Shown: in pieces, positions 44,372 through 59,250 of the stretch
Position numbering within the stretch: the first letter of the stretch is position 1
Layout of the letters: every line of letters begins with the position of its first letter
NCBI GenBank assembly: GCA_030635145.1
Contig: DAOVZK010000006.1
Coordinates: forward strand, 1 to 64,000
Source of the DNA: Planctomycetota bacterium
Lineage (GTDB): Bacteria; Planctomycetota; Phycisphaerae; SM23-33
Length of the DNA stretch: 64,000 bases
Reading direction: 5' to 3'
Translations under genes and position numbers: made by a program
The notes under the pieces: generated by a model
Told to the model about the DNA's origin: nothing
Seen by the model: the letters and a program-made list of their open reading frames with translations, nothing else
The model's database searches: none

Positions 44372-44532
44372 TTAGAGCGATTAACGATTAAGATGCGGGA
44401 TGCAGGCGCCAGCGAGGACAAGGCTGATAAGGACGCTGAAGCAGGCATAGTAAGCTATGCCGATGCAAGCGGACGCAATCAGCCGACGCCGCAGCCAGCA
44501 TGAACCCCGCAGGTTAAGCGTTAGTTGCTCTA
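44372..44532. repeat. TAGAGC-family structured repeat, copy A
   Basis: Long near-palindromic ends plus core AAGGACGCTGAAGCAG-GCATAGTAAGCTATGC-CGATGCAAGCGGACGC. Confidence 0.8.
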
Positions 44533-44612
44533 GCCGGTTCCCCAAAAATTCCGCATTTTTCCGACGATCTCGGTGGTATTTGGGCGAATTTGGAGCTATC
44601 GTAAACTTGATC

Positions 44613-45557
44613 ATGAAAGAGTCAGACTTTTTAACGTGGATTTACTCCCAAAACGGCTTCGACCCCGAAAAGGTTCCCGTCGGCCCGGGTGACGACATGG
44701 GCATTGTGAATCTAGACGCCGATACGCCGCTGCTGGTGGGGGTCGATCAGGTTCTCGACGGGGTGCATTTTAATCTGGCGTTGCATGGGGCGGAGGCAGC
44801 TGGGCGCAAAGCAATGGCACGCAATCTTTCCGACGTAGCTGCGATGGCGGCCTTGCCGGTCGGAGCTGTCGCGTCGGTGGCCTTGCCGAAAGGTTTTTCG
44901 CAAAACGACGCGCAGCAAATTTACGCGGGGCTGCGAAAACTTGGTGACGAATTCGCTTGTCCCTTAGTCGGGGGCGACGTAAGCACGTGGGCAGGGCCGT
45001 TGGGTATAAGCGTTACGATTTTCGCCAAGCCCGCCGGTGCCACAGGTGGCATCAAACCCGTGCTTCGCAGCGGTGCCCGCAGCGGAAACGCAATTCTCGT
45101 AACCGGACAGCTGGGCGGGTCGTGGTACGGGAAGCATCATCTCGAATTCGTTCCGCGTGTTCGCGAGGCGATACTGTTGGGGTTGAAGTATCGGCTGCGG
45201 GCGATGATCGATATTTCCGACGGGCTGACCAAAGACCTTGGGCGAATCTGCAAGGCCTCAAACGTCGGTGCCGAAATCTGGGAAGACGCAATCCCCATCC
45301 GGCCGGGTGCGGGTAAGGATCGCGACCCGAAAGCCTCGCCGCTGGACGCTGCCCTAAACGATGGCGAAGATTACGAGCTGCTGTTTACGGTTCCCAAGGG
45401 TCAGGTCGAAAAAATTATGCAAGATGTCGCGGATGGAAAAATTCCCGTAGCGATTTCCCACATCGGAACGATCACCAAGCAACAAACCCTGACGCTGGTT
45501 TCACCCGACGGTTCGCAGTGCCCACTTACGGATGGGGGTTGGGATCACGAGACGTAG
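44613..45557 (+). CDS. thiL: Thiamine-monophosphate kinase
   Basis: VGPGDDMGIV...LLVGVDQVLDGVHF; MIDISDGLTKDLGRI; start trimmed to MKESDFLTW. Confidence 0.92.
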   Translation: MKESDFLTWIYSQNGFDPEKVPVGPGDDMGIVNLDADTPLLVGVDQVLDGVHFNLALHGAEAAGRKAMARNLSDVAAMAALPVGAVASVALPKGFSQNDAQQIYAGLRKLGDEFACPLVGGDVSTWAGPLGISVTIFAKPAGATGGIKPVLRSGARSGNAILVTGQLGGSWYGKHHLEFVPRVREAILLGLKYRLRAMIDISDGLTKDLGRICKASNVGAEIWEDAIPIRPGAGKDRDPKASPLDAALNDGEDYELLFTVPKGQVEKIMQDVADGKIPVAISHIGTITKQQTLTLVSPDGSQCPLTDGGWDHET

Positions 45558-45584
45558 GGATTGGGTGTCACTTACCGCGGTTGT

Positions 45585-46337
45585 TTAATGTCCGTTAAAA
45601 AATACGACGAGCAGGTCCCAGCAGATGTGCGAGCAGACAGCTACGCCGAATCCGCGCCAGGCAAACAGTACGCCCCACCACATTCCCGCCAGCGCCAAAA
45701 ATACGACACTGCCCCACCGAATCGCCGCCGCCCCGTGCAGCTGCGCGCCGGACAAATGGCATAGCGCGAACAAAATTCCCGAAACCACAATCGCCCCCAC
45801 CACCACGCGGTTTTCTTTGCGTTTCATCGCGTCGGTGAAGATCAAAAGCGCGATGCTGATGAAGACCATGCGGAACAGAAATTCTTCGTATACCCCTGCC
45901 CCGACAGATTCCAGCACGCCGCGCAGCATGGGGTGACTTTGCTCGCGGATTTGCGCCGGTACGGGAATTTTGCCCGTCATCCAGTTTGCTGCGATCAGCG
46001 GAAGAATCGAAATCGCGCCTTCGACGACCATTCCGATTATGGCGGTGAAGCTGATGTGATGTTTGTGTTTCCCTCGCCCGAGATGCATGAGATGCTGCGC
46101 GAACAGCACGACGAGTATGACGATGGCGGGGAGAAATTTGCCAGCCACGCCCATCATCGAAAAGACGTAACGCAGATATTCCGGCACCAGCAGCGCGCTG
46201 CCGAGCTTTGCCGAAAACGCATGAAAAAACAGCAGCAACCCCGCCACCAGCACCAGTTGATTCAACGGCCGATGAACCTCAGCCCCATAGCTGTGGTCGT
46301 CGGGTGCGAAAACGCATTGGTCTTTTTCTCGTTTCAT
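45585..46337 (-). CDS. CPBP family intramembrane glutamic protease
   Basis: GAGVYEEFLFRMV; LCHLSG; HICWDLLV. Confidence 0.85.
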   Translation of the reverse strand: MKREKDQCVFAPDDHSYGAEVHRPLNQLVLVAGLLLFFHAFSAKLGSALLVPEYLRYVFSMMGVAGKFLPAIVILVVLFAQHLMHLGRGKHKHHISFTAIIGMVVEGAISILPLIAANWMTGKIPVPAQIREQSHPMLRGVLESVGAGVYEEFLFRMVFISIALLIFTDAMKRKENRVVVGAIVVSGILFALCHLSGAQLHGAAAIRWGSVVFLALAGMWWGVLFAWRGFGVAVCSHICWDLLVVFFNGH

Positions 46338-46735
46338 TGGCGGGGGCTTTCTTTTCGTTCTGACGGGAAAATCAGATACTCGCGATTTTTCTTCACCGTT
46401 TTCGGCCCGATCCCGTGGATTTTTTCCAGGTCGGCTGGAACGTCAAACGCACCCACACCGTGCTGCTGGCGATATGCGATGATCGCTTCTGCCCTAGTCG
46501 GTCCGATTCCGCTTAGTCGCTGAAGTGCCGCCGCCGCCGCCGTGTTGGGATCGATAAATTCGCGAGCCGCCCGAACTTTGGCAGCGTCTGCATTTGGGTA
46601 TTTCTCAAACCAGCAACGATCAGATAGTCCAACCGCGGCGATCCCGATCCACGCTGCTCCGACAATCGCAATCACCGCACAGAGATTGGGCTTTGATAAC
46701 CCAACATCCAAGTATGTGTGCATTCGGTTTGCCAT
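46334..46735 (-). CDS. ComEA-like helix-hairpin-helix protein
   Basis: TM segment then LQRLSGIGPTRAEAIIAYRQQHG...LEKIHGIGPKTVKKNREYL. Confidence 0.8.
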   Translation of the reverse strand: MANRMHTYLDVGLSKPNLCAVIAIVGAAWIGIAAVGLSDRCWFEKYPNADAAKVRAAREFIDPNTAAAAALQRLSGIGPTRAEAIIAYRQQHGVGAFDVPADLEKIHGIGPKTVKKNREYLIFPSERKESPRQ

Positions 46736-46760
46736 TATAGTTATGTTTCCGCGGTCTATC

Positions 46761-46905
46761 TAGAGCAGTTACGATTAGCTGGCTGCGTCCGCTTGCATCG
46801 GCCCGTACGGGTCTGCTTCGGCGTCCTTACAAGCCTCACATTTTGCCGCCCCCGTTGGGGGTCACTGACGCAGAAACTGTAAAATTGCAATCTTAAAATG
46901 CTCTA
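46761..46905. repeat. TAGAGC-family structured repeat, copy C (core on minus strand)
   Basis: Reverse complement core AAGGACGCCGAAGCAG-ACCCGTACGGG-CCGATGCAAGCGGACGC; ends TAGAGCA/TGCTCTA. Confidence 0.75.
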
Positions 46906-46906
46906 A

Positions 46907-48412
46907 TCATACAAACTTGTTGCGTGCAGCCTTGAGAGTTTGCATTTCCGTCAGTGCCATTTTTGGTGTCATGTCACTCGCGCAAAGCCCGCCGTTAGGA
47001 AGATGATGCGGTGATCCGTCGCTTAAGTCGCGCCAGCAGAGGCTGTCGACGAACGGTTTGCTGGCGGCTACCTTGTATACCGCGTGCAGCCATTCTGCCT
47101 GTAGCCGCTGCGACCACATAGCGTGCCAGGCCCCGGCGTTTCGCGCATGGGCTGCGCCGCTCCAGGCGTCGTTGCGATTTCCGCGCACGCTTGACGGCAC
47201 TTGGCAGGCCGTCAAATGCAGCGTCTTGCCTTGTACCAAAAATTCGTCCATCAACGAACTGATCTGCATCAGATCGCGAGCATAGTACCCGTCGCAGGCG
47301 GCACCCATTTGCAGATGGATTCCGAACGCGTCGCATTGGACGTCGTTCTGGAAGGCCATGTCGGCGTAGAGCATCGGTGGGATGGTGCGTTGGTTTCGCG
47401 CGTAGTATTCGCCCCATGGATGCGCCAGGTCGATCAGCACGGTGCTGTCGGGTGCGAGTTTTTTGACGAACCGGCAGCACGTTCGGGTCAGTTCGGTGAT
47501 CTGCTCAAAGTTCAGATTGTACGAGTTAATCGCCGCCAGTCCGGAAACGACTTTCCACAGCTGCACCTTGCCGTCGTAACGCTCGATGACGCCCCGCAGG
47601 TGGTGGAAGATTCGTTTTTGCAGTTCGTCGAAATCGTTCCGCCAAAACGCCAGCCATTCCGGTAGAAACCCGTCCTCGAAGCTAAGCAGCGGCCCGGCGT
47701 GAACGGGAACGTTTTTTTCCGTCGCCCAATCAATCCAGCTGTCGACTTCTTCGAAGCGAAATTGCGTTTCGGCCGGTTCGACGTTGGCCCAGATTATTGG
47801 AACCGAAACGAAATTTGCCGACTCGCTGATAATTTCACCCCCGGTCGTGATATCCGCGCTTGGGTTGACCATGATTCCGAGTGTCGGCTTTGGTTTTCCT
47901 AACCGCACGCGTTTTTTTGTCAGCAGCTCGGCGTGGAACAGCGCCATTTTTTCACCGAACAGCATTGCTTTGTTCAAGACGTCGTCGGCGATGACCGACC
48001 CGGCCGCGGGGTCGGCGGCGCTGGTGTTTAATGCCTCTATGAACCCCGCCGTGATCGCGCGAAATTCGTTATTCAACCCCTCGGATGTTTTGGTGTCGAA
48101 CAGGCCCCAGTCTTCGCGCTTTTGATAGAGTCGCATGATTTGCCCGCGGGCGAGTTCGAGGTTCAGCGAGTATGGTTTGGCTCGCGGAGTTAACCGCGTC
48201 GTCGATAGCAAGTACACCCCGCAGCTGTTTGTCGCCCACAGCACCGCCAACCCGCTGGGCCCGCTGGTGTTTTTTACGCAGGTAATTTCGTTGCCCTCGC
48301 AAAGCAGGTCGGCACGCAGGGGGATTGCGTCCTGTCCGAACACATACGATCCAGACAGGTCGACACTTTTGGCGGGGGCACCGTGTTTATAAGCTTCAAA
48401 CTTCAACATCAT
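46907..48412 (-). CDS. GH10-like endo-1,4-beta-xylanase/glycoside hydrolase family protein
   Basis: GH10-like layout (VHAGPLLSFEDGFLPEWL, WKVVSGLAAIN, GIHLQMG), distant. Confidence 0.5.
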   Translation of the reverse strand: MMLKFEAYKHGAPAKSVDLSGSYVFGQDAIPLRADLLCEGNEITCVKNTSGPSGLAVLWATNSCGVYLLSTTRLTPRAKPYSLNLELARGQIMRLYQKREDWGLFDTKTSEGLNNEFRAITAGFIEALNTSAADPAAGSVIADDVLNKAMLFGEKMALFHAELLTKKRVRLGKPKPTLGIMVNPSADITTGGEIISESANFVSVPIIWANVEPAETQFRFEEVDSWIDWATEKNVPVHAGPLLSFEDGFLPEWLAFWRNDFDELQKRIFHHLRGVIERYDGKVQLWKVVSGLAAINSYNLNFEQITELTRTCCRFVKKLAPDSTVLIDLAHPWGEYYARNQRTIPPMLYADMAFQNDVQCDAFGIHLQMGAACDGYYARDLMQISSLMDEFLVQGKTLHLTACQVPSSVRGNRNDAWSGAAHARNAGAWHAMWSQRLQAEWLHAVYKVAASKPFVDSLCWRDLSDGSPHHLPNGGLCASDMTPKMALTEMQTLKAARNKFV

Positions 48413-48839
48413 AAAATCCAGGGCATAATTTTGCGTGATTGTAAACGCTAACGCCGTTTCGCCGCTCGATCTTTCGCGCTTTGACTATTCGGCCGCTGCA
48501 TTATAACTACAACTCGCCCCAAAAAGACACCCGCAACTCAAAACGAGGAAATTTTTCGTCGCCTTGCCAGAAAAAATCTGAGCGCAACCAAACCGGGCGT
48601 TAACACACATGGTTTATGTAGGGGAATTAGTCCTCACCGATTAAGGTAAAAAATTTATATATTTGTTCTTGACAATCTGAGCGATATTTGCGATGCTCGA
48701 TCTCAGGTATACCCGTTGTAAGCGCGTTATGTTTGTTCTTAGAGTCTACAGTTAGGGTTGACTTCACTTCACCAGATGTCGAAGTAGGGGCTTCCACCTT
48801 TTATCGTAACTTTCCGCAAGGAAGGGAAGGAGAATTTCT

Positions 48840-49556
48840 ATGCAAAAGACAAGAACTTTTCTCGTTACGTTGTTTGTTGTATGTGCTTTAACTACCGTGT
48901 CTTGGGGCTGGACGCCCCTGCCAGCCGTCACTCATTATAACATGGCCACAAGAGTTTTGGACTACTCAACAATGGACGACTATGTCGATCAATTTGACGA
49001 TATGGGCTTGAATTACAACAGCATAGTTTCTTATGCTGCCAACGAACCGTCGGATCCACACATCGGGTATTCCGGGTTGTCCAATCAGTCCTATCTATCC
49101 TGGGACCTGAATAACGAACAGGTCGGGCGACTGATTCACTGCGCCAGCGACAACAGTGTCTCATCGCACTGGGGCATTGGTCCGTGGTGGAGTGAATTTG
49201 CCATTGAGGGCAAAGCGGCTACAATGTCGGGACCGGCAATGAGTTCCCCGTTTACTGGGACATATTCACAGAAAATGTCGGCGTTCTATTCCGCCCAGGT
49301 GTCACTTAACAACACCTATACCGCCTGGTTTAACACCCAGTGGTGGCCAACCTTTGCCCCAACCAGTTACGTAAACACGGGTTTGTTAAATGGGATGCGA
49401 ATGACCGAAGCTGTACTCATCGCATTTTTCGATTATCACCTGCAGGAAAGTGCAATGGCACCGGCGGGTTCGCCTGTTCCGGAACCGGCAACGCTTGCGT
49501 TGCTTGGTGTTGGACTGGGAGCCTTGGCTGCCAAACGACGAAAACGTAAGAAGTAA
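48840..49556 (+). CDS. PEP-CTERM sorted secreted protein
   Basis: Signal peptide and C-terminal VPEPATLALLGVGLGALAAKRRKRKK. Confidence 0.9.
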   Translation: MQKTRTFLVTLFVVCALTTVSWGWTPLPAVTHYNMATRVLDYSTMDDYVDQFDDMGLNYNSIVSYAANEPSDPHIGYSGLSNQSYLSWDLNNEQVGRLIHCASDNSVSSHWGIGPWWSEFAIEGKAATMSGPAMSSPFTGTYSQKMSAFYSAQVSLNNTYTAWFNTQWWPTFAPTSYVNTGLLNGMRMTEAVLIAFFDYHLQESAMAPAGSPVPEPATLALLGVGLGALAAKRRKRKK

Positions 49557-49565
49557 TTCAGTAGC

Positions 49566-49724
49566 TAGAGTGGTTCTTGAAAGTTCTTTCGTTTTAGGCG
49601 CCAGCGAGAGCGTCGCTGACAAGGACGGCGAAACAGGCATAGTGAGCTATGCCGATGCAGCCGGACGCTGTCAGGGTCGCTCGCAGCCAGCATCAAACGG
49701 AAAAGACTTTTGAGAATCGCTCTA
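49566..49724. repeat. TAGAGC-family structured repeat, copy B
   Basis: Core AAGGACGGCGAAACAG-GCATAGTGAGCTATGC-CGATGCAGCCGGACGC; 25+ bp inverted ends. Confidence 0.8.
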
Positions 49725-49744
49725 AACTGAATACGTGAATAAAA

Positions 49745-49792
49745 AACCGGGGACAGTCATCCGCAATGGAAGGCTGTCCCCGGTTGTTTTTT
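49745..49792. terminator. Bidirectional intrinsic terminator
   Basis: AACCGGGGACAG-N17-CTGTCCCCGGTT 12 bp perfect stem with T runs on both strands, between convergent genes. Confidence 0.85.
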
Positions 49793-58808: not shown

Positions 58809-59158
58809 GGGGGCGAATTGGATTCGACCGGACGGTGTGATGCGTCGGTGGCGTGCCGAGGTTCCAGGTGGCCTCGTAAAACCCTGGACACTTTTAGTTG
58901 CCAAACCGCAACTTCAAATGGCTGCGTAGATTACGCAACCCGTTTTTGGCGTCTTTGCTCGTGGGACATCAACGACGACGCACAGCGAGCTTGCTGGTAG
59001 AGAGTTGTCCGGTTACTCTCCCGGGACATTTGTCGGGCTGGTGGAAACAGAATCCTGTCGATTGGAGTCTGTATCCGCGAGAAACAAATAATCGAATACG
59101 CACGTAGAAACCGGCGTTGATACGTCACGGGACGCGGGTTCGATCCCCGCCGCCTCCA
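58809..59158 (+). ncRNA. ssrA: Transfer-messenger RNA; tag AKPQLQMAA encoded at 58900-58929
   Basis: 5' GGGGGCGAATTGGATTCGACC pairs with 3' CGCCTCC; T-arm GCGGGTTCGATCCCCGC; tag ORF GCCAAACCGCAACTTCAAATGGCTGCGTAG; CCA not encoded. Confidence 0.93.
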
Positions 59159-59250
59159 GTGGGCTCGCGTAGTAAAATCTATGCGAGCCCAACGCGATAA
59201 TGGGGTTCGCGCGAAATCAGATTTTCTACAATCTACAAAAAGGGTCGCCC

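Follow-up and report, generated by a model that had tools for sequence, protein, structure and literature searches.

A large, apparently undescribed family of mobile hairpin elements with a covarying core in planctomycetes and their relatives

The stretch of DNA analyzed here (the window) comprises the first 64 000 nucleotides of contig DAOVZK010000006.1 from a Planctomycetota genome of the class Phycisphaerae (assembly GCA_030635145.1). Three copies of one repeat are present where a sequence-only reading of the window had placed them. Copies A (positions 44375–44530, plus strand, 156 nt) and B (49568–49722, plus strand, 155 nt) are complete hairpin elements, and copy C (46763–46903, minus strand, 141 nt) is a chimeric and decayed one. 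According to Pfam, copy A lies between two divergent genes, a sigma-54 gene on the minus strand and a thiL-like gene of the AIR-synthase family on the plus strand. Copy C follows the stop of a GH10-like gene and precedes the start of an HHH-domain gene; both genes are on the minus strand. Copy B has on one side the stop codon of the gene directly upstream (48840–49556, plus strand), the product of which carries a PEP-CTERM sorting signal, and on the other side a separate inverted repeat with T/A runs (49738–49792). The window also contains a tmRNA gene (58809–59161, plus strand), identified by a full-length Rfam match of 163 bits.

The whole element, about 155 nt long and devoid of coding capacity, represents one long hairpin with several internal loops, and its GAG...CTC terminal inverted repeats pair as the hairpin base. 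All three copies are flanked in the same way (TA|GAG...CTC|TA). In copy A the terminal repeats together with the flanking TA, as delineated by pairing in the fold and by the flank letters, occupy positions 44373–44392 (plus strand) and 44513–44532 (minus strand). Closer to the tip is a core of two strands. The 5' strand of copy A, AAGGACGCTGAAGCAG (44429–44444, plus strand), has a 4-bp helix flanked by the loops AAGGA and GAAGCAG, and the 3' strand, CGATGCAAGCGGACGC (44461–44476, plus strand), was assigned by its match to the 3' core motif. Between them lies a hypervariable apical hairpin (44445–44460, plus strand); apical tips appear to be free to change, as the family has 138 different apical sequences. 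Matches to the same two motifs define the core strands of copy B, AAGGACGGCGAAACAG (49621–49636) and CGATGCAGCCGGACGC (49653–49668), both on the plus strand, and those of copy C on the minus strand, AAGGACGCCGAAGCAG (46813–46828) and CGATGCAAGCGGACGC (46785–46800). Copies A and B are 82% identical across 79 nt, while copies A and C share two inverted blocks of 88 and 92% identity.

The helix exchanges between the copies had been listed correctly in the sequence-only reading. As structural evidence, however, the three copies are unequal. Copies A and B fold far more stably than their shuffled counterparts (z = −7.07 and −6.89, respectively; 200 shuffles each). In contrast, copy C has a z of only −1.07, and 29 of its 200 shuffled versions fold equally well. 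Moreover, the left and right arms of copy C match different subfamilies, and the copy has an extra CCCCC..GGGGG insert in common with another element, L014. Taken together, these features make copy C weak evidence for the outer helix.

At most one mismatch being allowed, the 5' core motif occurs at least 18 times in this 2.38 Mb genome, compared with three occurrences of the same pattern read backwards. For the 3' core motif the corresponding numbers are at least 18 and 0. The copies sort into subfamilies with common arms, making recent copying evident. Across GTDB genomes, at least 111 stretches contain the core pattern, nearly all of them from Planctomycetota (Phycisphaerae, Sedimentisphaerales, Pirellulales and Planctomycetales among the matches listed) and Lentisphaerae; the matches listed also include one metagenome-assembled genome (MAG) named Proteobacteria and one named Thermoplasmatales. 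The distribution is patchy. Among 297 genomes of the phylum, a covariance model of the core (R1) has matches in 20 at an E-value threshold of 1e-6, and the core pattern is present in 15 of 60 relatives (both counts include the genome studied here). Copy numbers range from one to at least 150 per genome, the latter in each of two genomes (G353 and G359). The MAG named Thermoplasmatales archaeon SW_10_69_26 (G363; loci L039, L129, L227 and L429–L446) has 30 copies, in which the core is kept and the arms are longer and unrelated.

Searches of viral contigs, phages and plasmids for the element gave no match. Neither did Rfam at or above the gathering score, in line with the earlier statement that no named family fits; an Erse match in L102 (20 bits, the gathering score being 138) was treated as a chance one. 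A hit to a known Rfam or MITE (miniature inverted-repeat transposable element) family had been named as evidence against the sequence-only reading. In kind the elements are indeed MITEs, but no named family that corresponds to them was found. We found no description of them in open-licence papers, and an earlier account elsewhere is possible. Thus, copies A, B and C belong to what is apparently a large, undescribed family of mobile DNA elements in planctomycetes and their relatives.

To what extent is the fold itself conserved? In a full-length alignment of 29 divergent copies RNAalifold predicted 24 base pairs, 21 of which show double changes. In the core alignment 91.8% of the cells pair, and both sides change in 19 of 22 pairs. 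The covariation score is 0.691, in comparison with 0.204 for shuffled partners (none of 500 shuffles scored as high) and 0.076–0.155 for slid partners; the absence of covariation, which would have spoken against the sequence-only reading, was therefore not seen in these 29 copies. The letters of the internal loops (AAGGA, GAARCAG, CGATGCA and GACG) are nearly invariant. Two internal loops, AAGGA/GACGC with tandem GA.GA and GAARCAG/CGATGCA, thus stay fixed while the helices change. An arm is complementary to its own partner at a level of 0.663 and to the arms of other subfamilies at 0.538, the value for shuffled sequence being 0.530. Conservation of the core within clusters was left out of the evidence, since the core itself had served to find those copies. 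A further prolific subfamily of the window's own genome (L342–L347, L354 and L356), with ends TAGAGCATTGAAAAGTTG.., keeps AAGGA/GACGC and has the GAARCAG/CGATGCA loop replaced by a fully paired inner stem. As this subfamily is prolific, the latter loop is not strictly needed.

Mismatches in the arms reveal which strand is involved. When the two arms are aligned in a strand-neutral way, isolated mismatches are G.T in 86 cases and A.C in 36 (P = 7e-6), and the excess of G.T persists when counted by cluster (33:10) or by position (27:7). Since A.C here corresponds to G.T on the opposite strand, it is the motif strand that has its fold preserved. In the young burst of G351 (see below) the ratio among fresh mutations is 9:7, and by this small control mutation alone is not obviously the source of the bias. 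The earlier suggestion of selection on a folded strand is supported: divergent copies covary far beyond both shuffled and slid controls, and one strand is favored.

These observations bear on a rival explanation, according to which the elements are ordinary fold-back MITEs with an unselected fold, and paired changes are made by hairpin-templated repair together with recombination between subfamilies. It would account for the chimeric copies (C and L014), for deletion remnants of 28–50 bp and for the conversion of an inner loop into a helix in one subfamily. However, templated repair should erase loops, whereas the loop letters hardly vary, either within the phylum or in the archaeal-labeled MAG. 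Nor should it give any one-strand preference for G.T over A.C. We consider this explanation improbable.

The remnants just mentioned (L349, L355, L357, L358 and L361 in the window's own genome and L373 in G351) consist of two ends only. All those from the own genome are joined at one and the same TTGA microhomology. The remnants stem either from hairpin deletions that occurred repeatedly or from a very small mobile form.

Two tests of mobility draw on genomes other than that of the window; the window copies have just the TA..TA flank, which is ambiguous as a target duplication. In G351, which has the youngest burst, identical 3-bp flanks surround 21 of 23 elements (12 TAA, 8 TTA and 1 TTT) that were gathered by their ends and not by their core. 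Elements of G352 have TA...TA flanks in 12 of 13 cases, compatible with a 2-bp duplication. The ends of some subfamilies match those of insertion sequences. In G359, a transposase gene of the IS5 family (NF033580, above the cut-off) has a stop codon that lies within ATTCATTCTGTTAGGGGCTC, the reverse complement of which is identical to hairpin ends at 17 of 18 positions. The window's own genome contains an IS5-like remnant whose end, CTAGGTTCTGTCTGAAAAGTC, agrees with the ends of the L054 subfamily at 20 of 21 positions. Finally, the ends of an IS1182-family element in G358, CCTAGGAGTCTGTCCGAG, resemble the L089 ends, CCTAGGAGTCAGTCGGAG. Transposon ends of three or more kinds thus surround the same core, and between subfamilies the ends differ while the core stays. 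The assertion that the pattern indicates 'not simple copying' consequently does not stand as worded. The elements are transposed copies with subfamily arms shared by descent, as the 3-bp duplications and the matches to insertion sequence ends also indicate. Both processes, copying and selection for structure, are at work, each on its own time scale.

Searches revealed no partner transposase for the subfamilies to which copies A, B and C belong and neither a DDE_Tnp_1 nor a DUF4096 gene in G351, and PF13340 as a partner marker gave nothing above the cut-off. The partners may have been missed because draft assemblies often lack multi-copy insertion sequences. Among the loci examined there was no autonomous version with an open reading frame between the core halves, and the loci compared included no empty sites in related genomes. 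One insertion, present in both L221 (G359) and L242 (G353), is in an orthologous place with flanks 96–98% identical; it sits inside a predicted 714-residue reading frame and is the single orthologous pair among the loci compared. G351 also harbors related elements. L368 (contig C84, positions 195–339) has ends, CTAACAAAATGA, that resemble those of the hairpin family, and a CGTC-REP-like interior, GTCATTGCGAGG..GCAATCTC, instead of the core. L369 and L370 are sister elements of ∼178–183 bp that have the same ends and arms and a longer, altered core.

Another candidate mechanism is mobilization of REP-like hairpins by Y1/HUH transposases (RAYT). The genome does have nine Y1_Tnp matches, and the elements fold as a single-strand hairpin with conserved unpaired letters, which speaks for this mechanism. 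Yet the 1.5 kb on either side of each of the nine is free of these elements, other REPs accompany the RAYT-like genes here, and target duplications together with DDE-type ends are unlike Y1 chemistry. Hence, we regard RAYT mobilization as very improbable. In a separate observation, the Acido-Lenti-1 RNA family (RF01687) matches, with at most 35.5 of the 37 bits required for gathering, palindromic repeats flanking RAYT-like Y1 genes. Such matches occur in L148–L151 of the window's own genome, and in L149 they are on both sides of the gene. Two weaker ones (L102:5880–5926 and L116:6800–6847) are 17–18 nt past the end of a hairpin element. The Rfam 'sRNA' Acido-Lenti-1 may really be a RAYT-associated REP.

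Only 8 of 133 elements lie inside open reading frames. The rest are intergenic, usually within ∼100 nt of a gene end. This position, the very stable folds of copies A and B and the placement of copy B, with a stop codon on one side and a separate inverted repeat on the other, would all suit a cis-acting RNA in host transcripts (an mRNA stabilizer, processing site, attenuator or terminator) of the type reported for ERIC and Correia elements and kept by host selection. However, the elements are randomly oriented relative to flanking genes (37 co-directional, 34 opposite, 27 divergent and 27 convergent), the genes having been called by a simple hexamer score that makes single assignments rough. 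There are no GNRA or UNCG loops among 59 tetraloops, and none of copies A, B and C has a terminator-like site (a GC-rich hairpin followed by a T run). Recent copies also show no detectable constraint. In the young burst the core has 4 changes in 31 sites and the remainder 27 in 126, purifying selection was not detected, and the core shows no detectable excess of conservation. A role in host transcripts is therefore unlikely in our view. As no constraint is detectable in the young burst, selection is visible only between old lineages. Random orientation and fresh mutations free of detectable constraint together indicate that the fold probably serves the propagation of the element itself rather than the neighboring genes. 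That the inner core is kept while the paired arms are rewritten suggests that the fold itself has an as yet unnamed job. As to the folded form, random orientation and the absence of RNA-type tetraloops tip the balance slightly toward single-stranded DNA and away from RNA, though neither point is decisive.

On balance, we favor with moderate confidence the view that these are structured MITEs of ∼155 bp, present in Planctomycetota and Lentisphaerae and having a selected functional fold; copies A, B and C are assigned to the same kind on the grounds of homology. That such elements move non-autonomously by cut-and-paste transposition, with terminal inverted repeats and 3-bp target duplications, is shown by the subfamilies of other genomes. 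Judging by the similarity of the ends, IS5- or IS1182-family transposases could mobilize in trans the subfamilies that bear matching ends. The fold would be a functional module that became joined to different transposon ends, with selection acting on lineages that go on propagating and not on each insertion site. We know of no fold-dependent step in DDE transposition. The folded strand may help the element to spread or persist, for example, as single-stranded DNA that a host factor recognizes when the DNA is replicated or transferred (slightly favored) or as an RNA of the element. A bolder version, which we put forward only tentatively, is that the core represents a new class of functional folded nucleic acid (RNA or single-stranded DNA), spread via unrelated DDE transposon ends and read by a conserved factor, possibly in both bacteria and archaea.

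The usual view of MITEs is that of passive leftovers of insertion sequences. In the present family, a strand-specific fold with covarying helices survives the swap of transposon ends and spans Planctomycetota, Lentisphaerae and possibly an archaeon. Its persistence suggests that non-autonomous elements carry a portable function with them. The fold offers a sequence-defined target for finding the binding factor, and the covariance model could annotate hundreds of unnamed intergenic features in planctomycete genomes.

Several known systems share some of these properties. Like the structured RNAs of Rfam, the elements have helices that covary around conserved internal loops, although no Rfam family matches them. 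Like GTAG and CGTC REPs, they are dispersed intergenic palindromes with conserved unpaired letters. REPs, however, are 20–40 bp long and have a GTAG or CGTC tag beside a simple stem, and CGTC REPs have been described without a known transposase (PMC3733652). Our elements differ from REPs in their length (∼155 bp), several internal loops, transposon ends and target duplications, and they do not flank RAYT genes. The core does read CGTC on the other strand, but identity with CGTC REPs was rejected as the size and stem do not fit. The terminal sequences of three hairpin subfamilies are like those of IS5 (NF033580) and IS1182 (NF033551) insertion sequences; unlike these, the hairpins have no transposase and their interior is unrelated. 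Closest in kind are the IS-derived MITEs such as ERIC, RUP, NEMIS/Correia, bcr1 and QMITE, which are likewise non-coding, ∼155 bp in size and bounded by terminal inverted repeats, with target duplication where testable, many intergenic copies and foldable transcripts or strands (PMC10969869, PMC3733652). The open-licence MITE literature consulted for this comparison (the same two papers) describes no such planctomycete family. What sets the present elements apart from those MITEs is a phylum-wide core with invariant internal loops, covarying helices and exchangeable ends.
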